A stretch of DNA of 64,000 bases, from NCBI GenBank assembly GCA_030612705.1, contig JAUWNI010000003.1, positions 1 through 64,000 on the forward strand, written 5' to 3'. Below are positions 2,079 through 13,709 of the stretch, one piece after another. A program made the translations under genes and the position numbers. The stretch is from Phycisphaerae bacterium. GTDB taxonomy: Bacteria; Planctomycetota; Phycisphaerae; UBA1845; Fen-1342. The notes beneath the pieces were generated by a model. It had not been told where the DNA came from, did not search any database, and was given only the letters and a program-made list of their open reading frames with translations. Position 1 is the first letter of the stretch. Each line of letters opens with the position of its first letter.

Positions 2079-4055
2079 CTACGCCCCTTTCGCGACGGCC
2101 GTGCTCTGCCGATCGCTCAGTCGTTCTTCCAATACCTGCGCCAAGCGTTTCCCGTCGATCCGGCCGATCAACGCTCCCATCAACTGCCCCATCAAATAAC
2201 GGTGCTTCTTCTCGGCGGTCGCGAAGGGCCTGGACCCGGCCCGTTCGATCGCGCCGGCGATGGCGGCGTTCAGCTCGTCTTCCGGTATCGGGTGGATCCT
2301 CAATTCATCGAGCAGCCGTGTAACGCGCGATTCGGCACCGGCCCGCGGAGCCGGAGCTTTCAGCAACATCTCGATCAGCTCGGGCACGCCCTCGCGGGCC
2401 AAACGCCCGTCCGCGCGTGCCTTGAAAACTCCGAACAGCTCCTCGTTCGAAAGCCGCTCCGGCCTCAGCCCCTCCCGTCGAAACATCTTGAGCCGTTGAA
2501 ACAGTACCACCGCCGCAAAACGCGGATCCACCCCGAGCTCGCCGACAATGCGGTCGAACAGTCCCGCCAGCGGCGACATGCACATCGGATGAATCAGTTC
2601 CTCGGGCAGACTCATCTCGCGATAACGCGCCTCGCGGTCCCAGACATATTCCGGCAAACCCGGCCGAATCCGCTCGATCCGCTCCGGCGGGATCTCGATC
2701 GGCGGAAGGTCCGTGTCCGGATACATCCGGTCCGCGCCCGGCAAGACCCGCTCGAAGCCGTTCGTGCCGTCCTTGAGCGCCTGCCGCGTGTCGTTCGGGA
2801 CACCCTCGGTCGCCTCGCGAGCGCGCAGCGCGATCTCGTTGCAAGCCATCTCGGTGTCACGCTGGTCGCCCCAGACGAGCATCAGGGCGTCATTCGCGTT
2901 CGACTCGGTTTTTTTACGAAGCTGCTTCCAGTCCCGCGCCGGAATCGACTCCGCCGCCGTGTCCGAATGCACGATATTCGGCAGTTTCGTCAGGCAAGCG
3001 ACGACGCGAACGCGGTCGGAAAACTCGCTCGCGAAGTTGGTGTGCTCCTGCGTCGGATGGCTCAGCAGCCCCGCGAAGCCCTTGAGCACCACGCACTTGA
3101 CGCACAGCCCTTCGGCCAAGGCCGCCCGGATCGGCCCGTACGTCGCCTTGGACACCAGTCGGGAAACATCGTGCGCCGTGTGTGCAAACGTCTCCGGCGT
3201 TACCCCCCGCCGCTTCAGTTCCCGCCGAATCTCGAGCAACGCGCACTGCCGCATCGCTTCGTTGTAAACCAAGTGCGGAATTCGCCAGATTTGCGGAACC
3301 CCTTTGATCTCCACCCGCGTGCCCCCGCGAACACTGACGTTGACATCCTCGCGACCCGCCCCGTAACCGGTCCGAACCTTCCCCATGCTCCGGCACAGCA
3401 TCCGAATAATCTGGCAAACGTCCGCCGTCTCCTGGGGCGTATGCATGTCCGGCTCGGTTACCGCCTCGATCAACGGCATCCCAAGCCGGTCGGTTAGAAA
3501 GACCCGATCGTGTCCGATGTCGGAGACCTCGCGGCAGGCGTCTTCCTCGATGCTGAGCTGCCTGATGCCGATCCGGCGGTCTTTATAGGGAATCCAGCCG
3601 TCCACCCCGAGGATTGCCGATCGCTGGAACCCGGTCGGGATCGACCCGTCCAGGTATTGCTTCCGCGCGATGTGCAACTCGCCGACCATGTTCAGCCGCA
3701 GCAGCAGCGACAACTCGATCGCGATGTCGAGCGACTCCTCGTCGAGCATAAACGGCGGCGTGTCGTCGAATTCGTACGTGCAGACCGTTTCGTGATGGAT
3801 CCGGTAGTAAATGTTCTTCCGCGTTTTTTTCTCCATCAACGCCGTGCCGTCGTATTCACCCAGTTCCGACAGCGTCGGCCGCATGTGACGCAGGATCTCC
3901 GAGTCGTACTCGTTGCTATAACGGCCCGCCGGGCAGCGGCAAAACAGTTTCCGCTTGGTCAGCAACTGCTGATGAACTTCGAGCCCGCACTTTAGACCAA
4001 TGTTGGCATAGTCCTCGGGGGTCATCTCATCGAATGGTTTAAAGCTTGCCAGCAT
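2079..4055 (-). CDS. gatE: Archaeal-type Glu-tRNA(Gln) amidotransferase subunit E
   Basis: GatE binds Glu-tRNA(Gln), phosphorylates the glutamyl group and amidates it with ammonia from GatD. The 658-residue protein opens with the GatB/GatE cradle (GLEVHQQL, then Cys-rich FCRCP, a likely zinc site). It carries a central block of about 130 residues (near 265-395) resembling the GAD domain shared with bacterial AspRS, and ends in a helical YqeY-like tail for tRNA binding. The GAD insertion and the length above 600 distinguish GatE from GatB (about 480). The start chosen is ATG 4055, preceded by GAGGA; an upstream in-frame start would add 17 unlikely residues. The gene is first in a minus-strand set with the nucleotidyltransferase and gatD. 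Confidence 0.93.
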   Translation of the reverse strand: MLASFKPFDEMTPEDYANIGLKCGLEVHQQLLTKRKLFCRCPAGRYSNEYDSEILRHMRPTLSELGEYDGTALMEKKTRKNIYYRIHHETVCTYEFDDTPPFMLDEESLDIAIELSLLLRLNMVGELHIARKQYLDGSIPTGFQRSAILGVDGWIPYKDRRIGIRQLSIEEDACREVSDIGHDRVFLTDRLGMPLIEAVTEPDMHTPQETADVCQIIRMLCRSMGKVRTGYGAGREDVNVSVRGGTRVEIKGVPQIWRIPHLVYNEAMRQCALLEIRRELKRRGVTPETFAHTAHDVSRLVSKATYGPIRAALAEGLCVKCVVLKGFAGLLSHPTQEHTNFASEFSDRVRVVACLTKLPNIVHSDTAAESIPARDWKQLRKKTESNANDALMLVWGDQRDTEMACNEIALRAREATEGVPNDTRQALKDGTNGFERVLPGADRMYPDTDLPPIEIPPERIERIRPGLPEYVWDREARYREMSLPEELIHPMCMSPLAGLFDRIVGELGVDPRFAAVVLFQRLKMFRREGLRPERLSNEELFGVFKARADGRLAREGVPELIEMLLKAPAPRAGAESRVTRLLDELRIHPIPEDELNAAIAGAIERAGSRPFATAEKKHRYLMGQLMGALIGRIDGKRLAQVLEERLSDRQSTAVAKGA

Positions 4056-6805: not shown

Positions 6806-6998
6806 GGCGACCTCCGGAGCGAGTGGCGGGCTTGACGGCTCGGATTGTCGCGGACAACGCGGGTGTTATCCACCGGGTTCAAAAACTTCACCGCCGACGT
6901 GCAATCGCTGGGGGTCCGGTGCATATAAAGGACAGGGAGCGAAGCGCGCGGAGTATGATGTGTATTCGTAAGTCTTGTCCCATCAAGAGGTTGACGAA

Positions 6999-8675
6999 AT
7001 GCCGCTCGGGGAAATACTTGTAACCAAGGGCCTGATCACCGACGAACAACTCGAAGAGGCCACCAATCAGCAGTCGTCCAGCGAGCGGCTGGACCAGGTG
7101 TTGGTCCGCACCGGACTGGTCAAAGAACGTGAAATGCTCAAGGTCTACAGCGAGCGTTTCTCTATGCCGGTCGTCGAGCTCTCCGAAAGCGAGATCGACC
7201 GCTTGCTGATCAGACAGGTGCCCAGTCGGCTTGTCCACAAGTACGGGCTAATGCCGATCAAACGTAACGGCAAGGAGATCCGTGTCGCGACCTCCGACCC
7301 ATTCAACATGTACGCCATCGACGACCTCCGCGCCTCGGTCAACATGCCGGTCGAGACCGTTCTGGCCACGCGAACCGAAATTCACAAGATGATCAAGGCG
7401 TTCTACGGCGTGGCGGGTGACGTGCTGACGGAGATGGTCGCGGACGCCGGCGAAATCGAGGTGATCGACGAGCAGCGGATCGAGTCCGAGGACCTCGACG
7501 TGCAGATGGCCCAGGAGGCCTCGGTCATCAAGCTCGTCAACGAGATTCTGATCGAGGCCATCGACCAGCGGGCCAGCGATATCCATTTCGAGCCGTTCGA
7601 GCACGACTTCACCGTCCGCTACCGGGTCGACGGCGTATTGCACTACGCCAACGTCCCGCCCGAGATCCGCCGGTTTCAGAACGCCGTCATCAGCCGAATC
7701 AAAATCCTCTCCGGCTTGAACATTGCTGAAAAGCGTCTGCCCCAGGACGGCGGCATCAAGCTGCGGGCCCACGGCCGCGAGATCGACCTGCGTGTCAGCA
7801 TCATCCCGATGGCGTTCGGCGAGGGGGTCGTGCTGCGTATCCTGGACCGCACCGCCGTCAATCTGGATCTGCACGATCTGGGTATGGGTGGCGACGTCTT
7901 CGAACGCTTCGACGAGATGATTCACTGCCCGCACGGGATCATCCTGGTCACCGGACCGACCGGCTCGGGCAAGACGACCACGCTTTACGCGGCCCTCAGC
8001 TCGATCGTCAGCAGCGAATTGAAGATCCTGACGATCGAGGACCCGATCGAGTATTACCTCGAAGGCATCAACCAGATTCAGGTGCTGCAAAAGGTCGGGC
8101 TCACCTTCGCCCGGGCGATGCGGTCGTTCCTGCGGCACGACCCGGACGTGATTCTGGTCGGCGAGATTCGCGACCTGGAGACCGCCGAGACCGCCGTCAA
8201 CGCCTCGTTGACCGGCCACCTGGTCTTCAGCACGCTGCACACGAACGATTCGGTGTCGGCGATGACGCGTCTGCTGGACATGGGCGTCGAGCCGTTTTTG
8301 ATTTCCAGCGCGGTCGAGGGCGTGCTGGCCCAGCGTCTGGTCCGGACGATCTGCCCGAACTGCCGCGAGCAGTGGATACCGGAAGACCCCGACACGTTGC
8401 CGAAAGACTTCGGCTACAAGAAGAGCGATGTACTGTACTATGGTGCCGGCTGCCGCGATTGCCGTAACACCGGCTTCTCCGGCCGCCGGGCGGTCTACGA
8501 GCTGCTCGCCTTCAACGACGAACTGCGTGAGATGATTTTGCAACGCCGATCGGTGGCCGAGATGATTCCCGTCGGTCAAAAGAACGGCATGCGCCTGCTG
8601 CGTGACGAGGGTTGGCGAGTAGTCCGCGCCGGCCACACGACGGCACGGGAGGTCCTCCGTTCGACGAAGGCATAG
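6999..8675 (+). CDS. pilB: Type IV pilus assembly / type II secretion ATPase (PilB/GspE)
   Basis: This is the hexameric cytoplasmic ATPase that powers pilin polymerisation. The 558 residues contain an N-terminal MshEN-like region (GEILVTKGLITDEQL), a second N-terminal domain and the secretion ATPase core. Walker A is GPTGSGKT (319-326), Walker B is in DPDVILVGEIRD (near 381), and an Asp box and His box lie between. A four-cysteine zinc site (CPNC near 452 and CRDC near 485) is typical of PilB. The ATG at 6999 is preferred over TTG 6975 because AAGAGG lies 9 nt upstream. Pilin, PilC and PilM genes are not in the window. PilT and a degenerate homologue follow on the same strand. Confidence 0.92.
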   Translation: MPLGEILVTKGLITDEQLEEATNQQSSSERLDQVLVRTGLVKEREMLKVYSERFSMPVVELSESEIDRLLIRQVPSRLVHKYGLMPIKRNGKEIRVATSDPFNMYAIDDLRASVNMPVETVLATRTEIHKMIKAFYGVAGDVLTEMVADAGEIEVIDEQRIESEDLDVQMAQEASVIKLVNEILIEAIDQRASDIHFEPFEHDFTVRYRVDGVLHYANVPPEIRRFQNAVISRIKILSGLNIAEKRLPQDGGIKLRAHGREIDLRVSIIPMAFGEGVVLRILDRTAVNLDLHDLGMGGDVFERFDEMIHCPHGIILVTGPTGSGKTTTLYAALSSIVSSELKILTIEDPIEYYLEGINQIQVLQKVGLTFARAMRSFLRHDPDVILVGEIRDLETAETAVNASLTGHLVFSTLHTNDSVSAMTRLLDMGVEPFLISSAVEGVLAQRLVRTICPNCREQWIPEDPDTLPKDFGYKKSDVLYYGAGCRDCRNTGFSGRRAVYELLAFNDELREMILQRRSVAEMIPVGQKNGMRLLRDEGWRVVRAGHTTAREVLRSTKA

Positions 8676-9007: not shown

Positions 9008-10171
9008 ATGGCAGACGAAGTGTTGCTGGAGGTAACGGACGACGAATCCGGCCTAGAGTCCGGTCAGAAAGAGCCCATCCTGAACAAGTACTTCAAGTTC
9101 GTCATCAAGATGAAGCTCTCGGACCTGCACCTCAAAGCCGACCGCCCAGCCATCGTTCGGATGAAAGGCGACTTGCGGCCGCTGAAGGGCGGGCCGCTGA
9201 GCGACGAGTACATCCGCAAGGGGATCTTCGAGCTACTGAGCGAGGACCAGAAGCAGCTTTACAAGAACAACGGGGCGGTCGACTTCGCGCACGACGTGGG
9301 GCCCCCGGGAGACGCCGACCGGTTTCGGGTCAACGCCTTCGAGCAACGCGGGAAGATGTCGGTAGCGGCCCGTCGGGTAGACCGTAGCGTCTTCAAGTTC
9401 GAGGATTTGCACCTGCCGCCGGTGATGGCGGAGATTGCCGAGTTCAACCAGGGGATGGTTCTGCTGGCGGGGATCACGGGTTCGGGCAAGAGCACGACGA
9501 TCGCGTCGATGATCAACTACATCAATGCCCGTTGGCCCGTACACGTCGTGACGATCGAGGACCCGATCGAGTATCTGTTCACGGACGACAAGGCGCTGAT
9601 CAACCAGCGCGAGGTCGGAATCGACGTCGCAGACTTCCACATAGCCCTGAAGTACCTGATGCGTGAAGACCCGGACGTGGTGCTGGTCGGCGAGATGCGC
9701 GACGTCGAGACGTTCAGTGCGGCGGTGCACGCGGCCGAGACCGGTCACCTGGTTTTCGGCACGATCCACGCCTCGGGGGCGGCCCAGACGATCTCACGTA
9801 TTCTGGACCTGTTTCCGGAGAGCGAGCGGCGGGCGATCCGGCAGGCGCTGGAGTTTAACCTTCAGTCGATCATCTGCCAGAAGCTGATCCCGAGCGTCAA
9901 GGAAGGCGTGCCGTTGGTACCGACGGTCGAGATCCTGATCGTCAACGCGTCGATCCGCAAGCTGATCAAGGAGGAGCGCGACAACGAGATCATCAACGTG
10001 ATTCGCTCTTCGTACGAGACCGGCATGGTCGATTTCACCGAGCACCTGCGGCAGTTGGTGGAGACCGGGTATATCGATCACGAGACGGCTTACGACGCGG
10101 CTCCGAACCCCGACGAATTGAAGATGGCGCTCAAGGGGATCAGGCAGGCAACCACGGCGATTCTCGGCTAG
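9008..10171 (+). CDS. pilT: Pilus retraction ATPase (PilT family)
   Basis: PilT depolymerises type IV pili and so drives twitching or DNA uptake. The 387-residue protein has the PAS-like N-terminal domain, then Walker A GITGSGKS (about 156-163), Walker B in DPDVVLVGEMRD (near 221), a His box (HLVFGTIHASGA) and the PilT-specific stretch IRQALEFNLQSIICQKL. It lacks the four-cysteine zinc site of PilB. The N-terminal 20 residues before KYFKFVIK are acidic and longer than in typical PilT. The ATG is preceded by GGAAGGG. The next gene begins 43 bp downstream, so co-transcription is likely. Confidence 0.92.
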   Translation: MADEVLLEVTDDESGLESGQKEPILNKYFKFVIKMKLSDLHLKADRPAIVRMKGDLRPLKGGPLSDEYIRKGIFELLSEDQKQLYKNNGAVDFAHDVGPPGDADRFRVNAFEQRGKMSVAARRVDRSVFKFEDLHLPPVMAEIAEFNQGMVLLAGITGSGKSTTIASMINYINARWPVHVVTIEDPIEYLFTDDKALINQREVGIDVADFHIALKYLMREDPDVVLVGEMRDVETFSAAVHAAETGHLVFGTIHASGAAQTISRILDLFPESERRAIRQALEFNLQSIICQKLIPSVKEGVPLVPTVEILIVNASIRKLIKEERDNEIINVIRSSYETGMVDFTEHLRQLVETGYIDHETAYDAAPNPDELKMALKGIRQATTAILG

Positions 10172-10214
10172 GATACGCGCGGCCGCGCGACGCCGACCGG
10201 TCATAGGAGAAAGC

Positions 10215-11909
10215 ATGGCGACACTTGCTCTGCTTGAGTTGCTGGCTCAGCTTCCGGAAAGCAACATTTACGTCAATCCGTGGAAACTGGTCACGGCGGC
10301 GGTTCTGTTCACGCTGTGGGTCTTTATCGCCCAATGGATCGACCGGGACACGGTGGTGGTCAACACGTTCCGGACGATCTGGAACGTGGCGTCGATTATT
10401 TGCGGAACGGTGGCGCTGTTATTGCTATTGCTGTTGCCGAATTTCTGGGCGGCGATCGGCGCGTTCGCCTTGATCCATATCACTTTTACACTGATCTATG
10501 TCGTACACCGCAACGGTTTGGTCATCGAGGATGACAAAGTCTGCACGGCGGCGCACCTCAAACGGGTGATGACCGAGGGCTTCAGCGGCGGAAAGAAAAA
10601 AGAGCAGCGCGATGTGAAGGAACGCGTCCGAATCACCGGAGCCGACCGCGAGGTCGTCAAGATTCCCGAAGAGGAAACCGAACGCGAGCAGTTCGCCCTG
10701 GCGCAGGATTTGCTCTTCGACACCCTATGGCGACGGGCGCATCAGGTGGAAGTAGTACCGGCGGGGCAGGCTTCGAAGATCCGAGTGGAGATCGACGGGG
10801 CGACCAGCGAGCGCGAGCCGGTGACGCGACCGGAGGGCGACGCGATCCTGTTGTTCTTCAAGAAGGTTGCCGGTCTGAACCTCGAGGAGCGCCGCAAGCC
10901 GCAGAAGGGTCAGGTGATGGCGGCGCTCGGCGACGATCATCGCTATGACGTGGTGGTGCGAACGGACGGTTCGACCGCGGGTGAGAAGTTGACCCTGCGG
11001 GTGATTGGAGAGGAGAAGGATTACAAGGTCGATGATCTCGGCTTTACCGACAAGCAACTGGAGACGATGCGCGAGGCGATGAACGCCGAGCACGGGACGA
11101 TCCTGCTCTCGGCGCCGCCGGGCGGAGGATTGTCGACGTCGATCTACAGTTTTGCGCGGAGTCACGACGCGTTTTTACAGAACATCCAGATGATCGAGTA
11201 CGAGCGTGAGCTTGTAATCAACAACATCACGCAACATATATACAAGCCTTCGGAAGAAAAGACGTTCCTGGCGGAATTGCAGCGCGTGGTGCGGACCGAC
11301 CCGGATGTGATCGTACTGCCGGAGATTCGGGAGCGGGCGGCGGCACCACTGGCGGCCAAGGCGGCTACGGGCAAGCAGATCATGTACGTGGCGTTGAAGT
11401 CGCTGGACTTGTTCGACGCGCTGAGGCGCTGGGCGGGGATGGTCGGCAATGCGAAAAGTCTGGCCGGGAGCTTGCTGATCGTGACGCACCAGCGGCTGGT
11501 GCGCAGGTTGTGCCCCTCGTGTAAGACCCCTTACAAACCCGACCCGGCGACGTTGCAGAAGATCAACATGTCGGCGGACAAGGTCCTGTACCGGCCGCCG
11601 GAGCCGCAGTACGACAAGCACGGGAATCCGATTCTATGCCAGAACTGTCATGGGACGGGTTACGTGGGCCGGACGGGTGTGTTCAACATGCTGGTGGTTG
11701 ACGACGATCTGCGGAAGGTGATCGCCGGCGGGGGGTCGCTGGTGGATATCAAGCGGGCGGCGATGAAGAGGGGGGGCTTGGGGCTCCAGCAGCAGGCGTT
11801 GCAGAAGGTCTTCGACGGGACGACGAGTATCGAAGAGGTGGTCCGCGCGACGCGTCCGCCCAAAACGGGGGCACCGAAGGCGAGCAAGGATAGACCGAGC
11901 GCTGCTTAG
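10215..11909 (+). CDS. Membrane-anchored PilB/GspE homologue with broken Walker A
   Basis: The protein has 564 residues. Three predicted membrane helices occupy about residues 22-100, an arrangement not found in ordinary PilB or GspE. A cytoplasmic charged linker and a secretion-ATPase-like domain follow. The Walker A position reads APPGGGLST (about 299-307): the invariant Lys is replaced by Leu, so ATP hydrolysis is improbable. The Walker B region (DPDVIVLPEIRE, near 362) and both zinc cysteine pairs (CPSC near 433, CQNCHGTGYVGR near 475) are kept, which shows descent from PilB rather than PilT. The C-terminus is Lys/Pro-rich. Placed 43 bp after pilT and 15 bp before a CvpA-like gene, it may be a membrane docking or regulatory subunit; this is inference. 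Confidence 0.85.
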   Translation: MATLALLELLAQLPESNIYVNPWKLVTAAVLFTLWVFIAQWIDRDTVVVNTFRTIWNVASIICGTVALLLLLLLPNFWAAIGAFALIHITFTLIYVVHRNGLVIEDDKVCTAAHLKRVMTEGFSGGKKKEQRDVKERVRITGADREVVKIPEEETEREQFALAQDLLFDTLWRRAHQVEVVPAGQASKIRVEIDGATSEREPVTRPEGDAILLFFKKVAGLNLEERRKPQKGQVMAALGDDHRYDVVVRTDGSTAGEKLTLRVIGEEKDYKVDDLGFTDKQLETMREAMNAEHGTILLSAPPGGGLSTSIYSFARSHDAFLQNIQMIEYERELVINNITQHIYKPSEEKTFLAELQRVVRTDPDVIVLPEIRERAAAPLAAKAATGKQIMYVALKSLDLFDALRRWAGMVGNAKSLAGSLLIVTHQRLVRRLCPSCKTPYKPDPATLQKINMSADKVLYRPPEPQYDKHGNPILCQNCHGTGYVGRTGVFNMLVVDDDLRKVIAGGGSLVDIKRAAMKRGGLGLQQQALQKVFDGTTSIEEVVRATRPPKTGAPKASKDRPSAA

Positions 11910-11924
11910 CGATCGAGGTGCGAT

Positions 11925-13709
11925 ATGGCATTCAATCTGGTTTCACTCGTGCTGGTGCTCGCGGTTACCTTCATGCACTCGATCTTCGGGTTCTTCAGCG
12001 GGCTGATCAATGTGTTCTGCTCGGTGGCCGCGATAGCGATCACGTTTGGTTTCTACGAGGCGCTGAACGATTTTATCACCAAGAGCTTCGGATTGCACCC
12101 GGGCTATACCGAACCGATCTGCTTTATCGCGCTCTTCGTTATCAGCATGGCCGTGCTGCGGGCGTTGGCGGATAATTACATTCGCGGGAACGTGAAGTTG
12201 CCGATGGCGGTCGATTTAGCCGGGGCCGGGGTTTGTGGGTTCATCAACGCGCAGCTTTTCGTGGGTATGCTGGTGCTGGGCGTGCTGATGTTGCCGATCG
12301 GGGGGCGCGTGCTGGGGTTCTCGGCCTGGGAGAGGAATGAGTACAACGAGCAGGATCCCGATCATCCACAATTGACCAAGTTTGATCGTAACCATCTCTG
12401 GCTGCGCTCGGACGAGTTCGCCGCCGGGCTGTTCAAGCTGATCAGCGGCGGCAGCATGCGCGGGACAACGGCGTTTGCCAGCGTTTATCCTAATTTTTCG
12501 GAGGCGGTGTTCTTTTCGACAAACACGGTGCAGCCCGAATCGACCCCGTCGCCGTTCCGCAAGGATAAGGGACGCGACGCGGACGGCTTTGAGAAGGGGC
12601 TGCGCGTGGAAGGCTGGTGGGAGGAGAGCGATCCGATCGAGGGTCGCTACCGGAAGGAAGTGCCGACAAAGCGGTATCCCCAGCCGGACTATGAGCGGGT
12701 GGAGTTCAAACCGGCACCGGGGATGAAGCTGATTGTAACCCGGCTGCATCTGGATCGCACCGCGGCCGACCGCGATAAGCGTACATCAATGCACTTGTTC
12801 CGGCCAACGATGATACGTTTGGTGGGTGAGACCGGTAGTGGGGTTCCGCAGCAATATGTGCCGCGGATTCTCGCGAATGCGGATCGACAGCTAACGGGCG
12901 GGCACCGGATTGTCGACTACGACAACAATTTCAGCCTGCCGGCCGACGGGGAGGATCGGATCTACGCCTATTTCGAAGTGGATCAGGATTTCAAGCCGGC
13001 GTTCGTGGAGTATCGGCGGCACGCCCGGGCGGCAGTGCCGGCGCAGCCGGAAGAGGACCCCGAGGTGGTCTTGACGCTGGCCGGTGAAACGCGCGGAAGG
13101 CGTACGGGGCGAGGTGGATCCCGGACGTTCGGGAGGATTTTGGAAGGCGGGAGCGGTGACAGCCAGAGGTTGCCGTTCGTGATGATGCGGCGGGCGTTCC
13201 AGGGGTCGGGAGAGGTGACGCTGGACGGCCGCGAATTCGTTTCGGGTCGGATTTTCGGGTCGCGTTCGCGCCTGGAACATTCCGGCGAGGAACCGCGAGT
13301 TAGTGACTTCAAGGTGCCCGAGGGGATGCGTCTGATGCAAATACGCTACAAGCCCAAGCGGGTGCGGAGCGTCGTCGGGCAGGTGTTTAATTTTGTCGGC
13401 CAGCTTAACCAGTACTCCATCATTGACAAGAACGCCAACCCATACCCGCTGGTGGGTTACTACGCGATCGTGAATCGGGGCCGCGGCGGCGAATACATCG
13501 AGTTGTTCTACGCCGGCGGACCCGACGATCCGCTAAATGTGAGCTATAATAGAATGCTCGACTTCAAGGAGTTCAAGCGGAACGAGATTAACGACCTGGA
13601 TGACACGATTGTCGGCCTGTTGTTCCTGGTGCCGCCGGACATGGAATTCAGGCGGGTCGAGAACCAGACGGGCGAGGGCGGCGATATTCGGCTGAATTCG
13701 AGTGGTTAG
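11925..13709 (+). CDS. CvpA-like membrane protein with large soluble C-terminal domain
   Basis: The 594-residue protein starts with four hydrophobic helices (about 4-28, 30-50, 62-85, 95-125) arranged as in the CvpA/colicin V production family. About 450 residues of mainly beta-rich soluble sequence without a recognised domain follow. A Gly/Arg-rich patch (near 385-405) interrupts it. CvpA proteins are usually about 160-250 residues, so the tail is the unusual part. The start ATG follows GAGGTGCGAT and lies 15 bp after the membrane ATPase homologue, so the two are very probably translated from one message. Function unknown; context suggests a partner of the pilus apparatus or envelope. Confidence 0.7.
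   Translation: MAFNLVSLVLVLAVTFMHSIFGFFSGLINVFCSVAAIAITFGFYEALNDFITKSFGLHPGYTEPICFIALFVISMAVLRALADNYIRGNVKLPMAVDLAGAGVCGFINAQLFVGMLVLGVLMLPIGGRVLGFSAWERNEYNEQDPDHPQLTKFDRNHLWLRSDEFAAGLFKLISGGSMRGTTAFASVYPNFSEAVFFSTNTVQPESTPSPFRKDKGRDADGFEKGLRVEGWWEESDPIEGRYRKEVPTKRYPQPDYERVEFKPAPGMKLIVTRLHLDRTAADRDKRTSMHLFRPTMIRLVGETGSGVPQQYVPRILANADRQLTGGHRIVDYDNNFSLPADGEDRIYAYFEVDQDFKPAFVEYRRHARAAVPAQPEEDPEVVLTLAGETRGRRTGRGGSRTFGRILEGGSGDSQRLPFVMMRRAFQGSGEVTLDGREFVSGRIFGSRSRLEHSGEEPRVSDFKVPEGMRLMQIRYKPKRVRSVVGQVFNFVGQLNQYSIIDKNANPYPLVGYYAIVNRGRGGEYIELFYAGGPDDPLNVSYNRMLDFKEFKRNEINDLDDTIVGLLFLVPPDMEFRRVENQTGEGGDIRLNSSG

Follow-up and report, generated by a model that had tools for sequence, protein, structure and literature searches.

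What is the role of a PilB-type protein that is predicted to be fixed in the membrane and has no lysine in its Walker A motif? In the literature, the motors of pili are catalytic hexamers of the cytoplasm, for which PilC and PilM provide the docking sites (PMC11656802). The gene in question lies at 10215..11909 on the forward strand of the window, by which we mean the whole stretch of 64,000 nucleotides that was analysed. Recognised as an open reading frame, by Pfam and through its homologues, it encodes a membrane-anchored PilB/GspE-type pseudo-ATPase of 564 amino acids, here called TM-PilB. A ribosome-binding site, AGGAG, is seen in the sequence ahead of its ATG (10205..10209, +).

Architecture and nucleotide site of TM-PilB

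Hydropathy predicts three membrane helices at the N-terminus, spanning residues 24-43 (10284..10343), 52-75 (10368..10439) and 78-98 (10446..10508), all on the forward strand, whereas the PilB and PilT of the window have none. The first two are also helical in a low-confidence model (AlphaFold2 with 4-row and 2-row alignments gave a mean pLDDT of 37 for TM-PilB and its CvpA-family neighbour). Furthermore, W35, W41, D45, W56, P75, Y95 and R99, which lie in or around these helices, are common to the dead and the active TM-PilBs described below. As such, the predicted 3-TM architecture is shown by hydropathy and conservation together, and the window's protein has the combination by which we define TM-PilB, namely a 3-TM N-terminus with these conserved residues, fused to a T2SSE domain. 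The latter matches PF00437 over residues 163-544 with 187 bits (curated cut-off 24.9), and no match to T2SSF, the PilC-type platform, was found in TM-PilB with Pfam. At 210 bits, TM-PilB misses the PilB/GspE equivalogs TIGR02538 and TIGR02533 of NCBIfam (cut-offs 676 and 630), as do the catalytic PilBs of the same genome (478-645 bits).

The degenerate Walker A (residues 300-309, 11112..11141, +) reads APPGGGLST at 300-308 in the alignment, with Leu306 where PilB has its lysine, so that the pattern GxxGxGK[ST] of PilB/GspE is not matched. The initial annotation, made from the letters of this DNA, had described three N-terminal helices joined to a PilB-type domain with leucine for the Walker lysine, and this description holds. 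Its statement that Walker B remains holds only approximately: in VIVLPEIRE (residues 365-373, 11307..11333, +) a proline has taken the place of the glycine ahead of the glutamate, though Glu370 and Arg372 are retained; the catalytic glutamate after Walker B, present here, varies across the family. The first Arg finger and the HIS box are lost, and the position of the second finger is kept (R262). Both zinc cysteine pairs remain, as had been noted: C433/C436 (11511..11522, +) and C475/C478 (11637..11648, +).

With the PilB/GspE extension ATPases (PF00437), TM-PilB thus shares the N2D and the C-terminal ATPase domain with its tetra-Cys zinc motif, and its best matches by sequence among solved structures are PilF (5oiu), PilB (5tsg) and GspE (4ksr). 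It differs from them in that the MshEN/N1 N-terminus is replaced by three membrane helices, the Walker A lysine and the HIS box are lost, and so, for the most part, are the Arg fingers. Judged by its sequence, TM-PilB is a PilB/GspE ATPase in fold and ancestry that fails the catalytic and solubility features of that family, and at most it would act as a motor ring that lacks an engine.

Distribution, losses and selection

An orthologue of TM-PilB is present in 58 of 61 related genomes, with scores of 370-918 bits, where other PilB-type matches reach no more than 172. The Walker lysine is absent from every aligned orthologue of the related genomes, with Leu, Val, Ile or Met in its place, so what is seen in the window is not due to chance. 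A profile search through 248 genomes of the Phycisphaerae, the class of Planctomycetota to which the organism of the window belongs, returned TM-PilB candidates in 206 at E <= 1e-120, and members sampled from about 20 further families of the class all carry the anchor and all lack the lysine (340-630 bits, compared with 240-275 for soluble PilBs). When 112 TM-PilBs were aligned, 21 had the lysine, 20 of these with complete motifs, and 91 did not. The Lys-less proteins come from the Phycisphaerae and two other families (f92 and f101); the residue at the lysine position is Leu in 39, Val in 26, Ile in 9, Arg in 9, Met in 3, Gln in 2, and Ser, Ala or Phe in one each, which makes it hydrophobic (L, V, I, M, F) in 78 of the 91.

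How far this loss extends to the remainder of the protein can be read from a table of 72 columns that are invariant in 27 Lys-bearing relatives, scored in 47 Lys-less rows, with the functional roles of residues taken from the PilB structure paper (PMC5424180) and mapped by alignment. The nucleotide site has largely been dismantled: the lysine and the P-loop threonine are retained in 0% of dead rows, the two Arg fingers in 23% and 38%, the HIS-box histidine in 4-6%, and the Gly-Glu-Arg of Walker B in 17-38%, with 38% for the catalytic glutamate. In the same rows the four zinc cysteines are kept at 96-100%, and retention over the zinc cysteines, the QRLxR-LC motif, Glu541 and Arg544 amounts to 74-100%; Leu428 and Arg430 are also among the residues that dead forms keep. 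The losses are enriched at ATP-site columns (one-sided Fisher p 2.5e-4, for site boundaries that were set after the table was seen). A selective loss of the nucleotide site, with the zinc and C-terminal scaffold retained, is thereby shown.

Two observations on individual positions may be added here. The ASP-box glutamate, Glu328 in the window (11196..11198, +), persists in 100% of the Lys-less rows, although the residues working with it are mostly gone. In three loci of one Phycisphaerae family (L155, L156 and L157, family f10), the zinc cysteines are partly lost and an arginine occupies the position of the Walker lysine.

In six pairs of TM-PilBs dN/dS ranges from 0.06 to 0.21, indicating purifying selection, and therefore the protein is maintained. 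Within the genus it evolves faster than the neighbouring PilT2, at 69% identity versus 86%.

Genomic partners and ancestry

The gene for a CvpA-family (PF02674) membrane protein begins 15 bp downstream of TM-PilB (11925..13709, +), as identified with Pfam and by comparison of neighbourhoods. The initial annotation had missed this gene, which turns out to be the most strictly conserved partner: it lies directly downstream on the same strand in 101 of the 112 TM-PilB loci, and four of the other 11 end at a contig border. The CvpA-family gene is therefore the most constant partner of TM-PilB. PF02674 was found by Pfam (E <= 0.1) in 31 of 38 order-level downstream proteins and in six of seven downstream genes tested from other lineages, several of them below the curated cut-off. 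In the Phycisphaerae, the protein differs from the CvpA / Colicin_V family at large by a long extra sequence, predicted to be beta-rich and without a Pfam match, which in the window takes up about 450 amino acids, whereas the gene of the lineages with an active TM-PilB is short (about 190-250 aa). A profile search of the PDB with the CvpA-family protein of the window returned only matches at E >= 0.6. One apparent fusion of TM-PilB and CvpA, in genome G012, was rejected, as a single TAG separates the two.

On the other side, 43 bp upstream, lies a PilT-family ATPase (9008..10171, +; NCBIfam pilT_fam, 395 bits), referred to as PilT2, whose catalytic site is intact, with K161, E184, E229 and H254 all invariant. 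PilT is directly upstream in 79 of the 112 loci, at three further loci the order is PilT-PilB-TM-PilB-CvpA, and where PilT is not adjacent, another part of the genome usually carries its orthologue. A PilT2-like gene occurs in all 56 genomes with a clear anchor, compared with about 55 of 237 without one (the 55 counted by hand). In 20 anchor-less planctomycete genomes that were sampled (L221-L240), PilT2 occurs without CvpA and, except at L224, without an adjoining PilB. PilT2 must have other roles as well, since some genomes have it and no TM-PilB, and since about 30% of the TM-PilB loci lack it as a neighbour. Open frames of 960-980 aa that suggested a fusion of PilT and TM-PilB (G087, G111) proved to be frame-open overlaps, with the PilT ORF in another frame. 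Over 32 order-level genomes, the evolutionary distances of TM-PilB correlate with those of CvpA after correction for PilT (partial r 0.65), and with those of PilT after correction for CvpA hardly at all (partial r 0.02).

The gene had also been described as lying next to an intact PilB and PilT. Both are intact indeed, the PilB being a soluble PilB/GspE-type ATPase with an MshEN domain (6975..8675, +; Pfam and NCBIfam, whose scores do not separate PilB from GspE), but in relatives this PilB does not stay adjacent to TM-PilB. As to the proposal that TM-PilB replaces a missing PilC, each of the 21 genomes searched has PilC/GspF-type (T2SSF) genes, among them this genome, where two-domain ones lie away from TM-PilB, and therefore nothing needs replacing. 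PilB-PilT or PilB-PilT-PilB sets likewise occur elsewhere in the same genomes, according to PF00437 searches. A two-domain PilC/GspF at G000:C80 was considered as an orphan and rejected, since it lies in a T2SS-like pseudopilin cluster. That cluster (L139, G000:C80:20000-31398) combines GspF-type, pseudopilin-like and GspL/PilM-like genes, with no ATPase gene adjoining.

Where, then, does an anchored PilB without a working ATP site come from? A search across the phylum yielded ten 3-TM members whose ATP site is intact; they belong to f51, f58 and f72, three families that are not part of the class. They carry a GPTGAGKST-type Walker A, GE(I/V)RD and the HIS-box histidine, and a CvpA-family gene is usually their neighbour too. 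When only the membrane part was used for searching (alignment A5), 56 clear anchors were found among 294 planctomycetotal genomes, in sampled Phycisphaerae and in f51, f58, f72, f92, f101 and f108. Two maximum-likelihood trees of the ATPase domain only, under LG+G4 and LG+C20, place all TM-PilBs on one side of a branch from the soluble PilBs (support 97/91 and 89, respectively), with the active anchored forms at the base of the TM-PilB clade in both. The dead forms make up one clade under LG+G4 (95/63), or two, Phycisphaerae and f92+f101, under LG+C20. The sister of the TM-PilB clade is a soluble catalytic PilB that stands beside a PilT orthologue in f7 genomes.

As the dead forms group with the active 3-TM forms and apart from the soluble PilBs, we take the anchored motor to have come first: by the topology of these trees, an anchored catalytic PilB-type protein preceded the Lys-less ones and was later silenced one to two times. 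It appears, then, that a working motor was converted to a role that is structural and no longer catalytic. The initial annotation had asked whether the lysine is lost in all homologues and whether the genes stay together. The lysine is indeed lost in all homologues examined within the class, and PilT is often adjacent, but PilB is not kept there. Relatives that keep the lysine, which had been named as grounds against a dead PilB, exist only outside the class, as sister lineages with a catalytic version; what looked like an odd pseudo-PilB is thereby better described as a silenced membrane-anchored motor. Separately, one member of family f108 (L198, genome G522) is a very divergent anchored PilB that keeps GPPESGKTTT and has lost the ASP box and the Walker B glutamate. 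Its degeneration, as it stands in the alignment, is a second one, of a different kind from that of the Lys-less TM-PilBs; because of its very long branch it was left outside the LG+G4 tree.

A silenced motor as a proposed membrane scaffold

The reading we prefer, to which we give a probability of about one half, is that TM-PilB is the silent descendant of an anchored motor and serves, together with CvpA, as a non-catalytic membrane ring or scaffold on which active PilT docks. Descended from a catalytic, membrane-anchored PilB-type motor, it would be fixed in the inner membrane by the three N-terminal helices with its ATPase fold on the cytoplasmic side, stay with the CvpA-family protein from the next gene, and offer the active PilT paralogue a permanent ring or scaffold to dock on, PilT burning the ATP that TM-PilB does not. 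What we infer from these data is the assembly of TM-PilB into an oligomeric ring, its N-out/C-in topology, its physical contacts with the two partners CvpA and PilT, and its function as a scaffold. A docking platform or a brake had been proposed at the outset; that it docks or scaffolds a pilus-type motor is the best guess because the lysine is lost class-wide, the anchor is kept and PilT is often adjacent. Our confidence is not higher because the distance correlations favour the link with CvpA over that with PilT.

This same pattern of distances would fit an alternative that we regard as a serious though minority possibility, in which TM-PilB joins with CvpA in a separate inner-membrane complex for transport, envelope or sensing, distinct from type IV pili, and the link with PilT is secondary or regulatory. 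CvpA being the most constant neighbour speaks for it, as do the canonical PilB-PilT-PilB clusters that these genomes have at other places. The inspected TM-PilB loci also showed no genes for pilin, PilC, PilM-O or secretin beside them, which is weak evidence because these neighbourhoods were screened by similarity to genes of the window and by eye. Against such a separate machine, PilT2 accompanies every clear anchored TM-PilB, at 79 loci immediately upstream, and the active anchored forms keep a full PilB-type motor site.

The proposed brake, a dominant-negative subunit that would form mixed hexamers with soluble PilB/GspE and thereby lower motor activity, is unlikely. TM-PilB has the fold of those proteins, and over-expressed Walker-dead PilT or PilU does poison the cognate motor (PMC6821130), but TM-PilB is only about 25-30% identical to soluble PilBs, PilB is not conserved as a neighbour, it has mostly lost the Arg fingers with which one subunit completes the site of the next, and even PilT and PilU, a more similar pair, each assemble into homohexamers of their own (PMC6821130). 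We consider it quite improbable that TM-PilB is still an enzyme, binding nucleotide without the Walker lysine by way of, for example, an arginine or the kept ASP-box glutamate. The latter is present in 47 of 47 rows though its neighbours are lost, and nine forms do have an arginine at the lysine position; yet a hydrophobic residue predominates there, and the P-loop residues have mostly disappeared as well, along with the Arg fingers and the HIS box. Lastly, the loss of catalytic residues and an evolution faster than that of PilT2 are what a decaying, functionless duplicate might display, but an ORF intact across the whole class, the low dN/dS and a conserved operon already contradict this idea and leave it scarcely credible.

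The scaffold reading has a parallel in Vibrio cholerae, where PilT with a dead Walker A (K136A) still supports retraction driven by PilU and deletion of PilT does not (PMC6821130), so that a non-hydrolysing protein of motor fold can be needed for a second, active motor. PilT K136A is a soluble laboratory mutant, whereas TM-PilB is natural, PilB-type, presumably fixed in the membrane, and conserved over a class. In Acinetobacter, too, one genome carries two extension-motor homologues that are phylogenetically distinct, TfpB and PilB (PMC8213720). Unlike TM-PilB, TfpB is a motor required for pilus extension and, in the portion of that paper at hand, is not reported to be anchored or dead. In the open literature, which leaves most subscription journals outside, we found no account of a PilB anchored in the membrane, whether active or dead, and none of a link between CvpA and PilB or PilT; nothing specific on a pseudo-ATPase PilB or on a planctomycetal PilB came up there either.

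It is tempting, though doubtful, to extend the scaffold reading to a distinct T4P-like machine of the Planctomycetota, in which an integral-membrane PilB-type motor and a CvpA-family protein would replace the separate PilC-type platform, and which in the Phycisphaerae would have become a non-catalytic membrane ring driven or held by PilT, a dead ring plus a live ring. A motor that was welded to the membrane and whose ATP site was then erased under selection, with the scaffold kept, would separate the structural role of the ring from catalysis. Moreover, the active and dead anchored forms offer a natural pair for asking which functions a PilB ring has other than the burning of ATP, and CvpA, a widespread membrane family, gains a testable candidate partner.

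Elsewhere in the window, 2079-4037 on the reverse strand encodes GatE, the archaeal-type subunit of Glu-tRNA(Gln) amidotransferase, in what is a bacterium. It scores 490 bits against TIGR00134 (cut-off 320) and 541 bits against NF003107 (cut-off 456). GatE was found in 16 of 41 genomes searched, one of which is a single-contig genome, and among 14 controls only in archaea.
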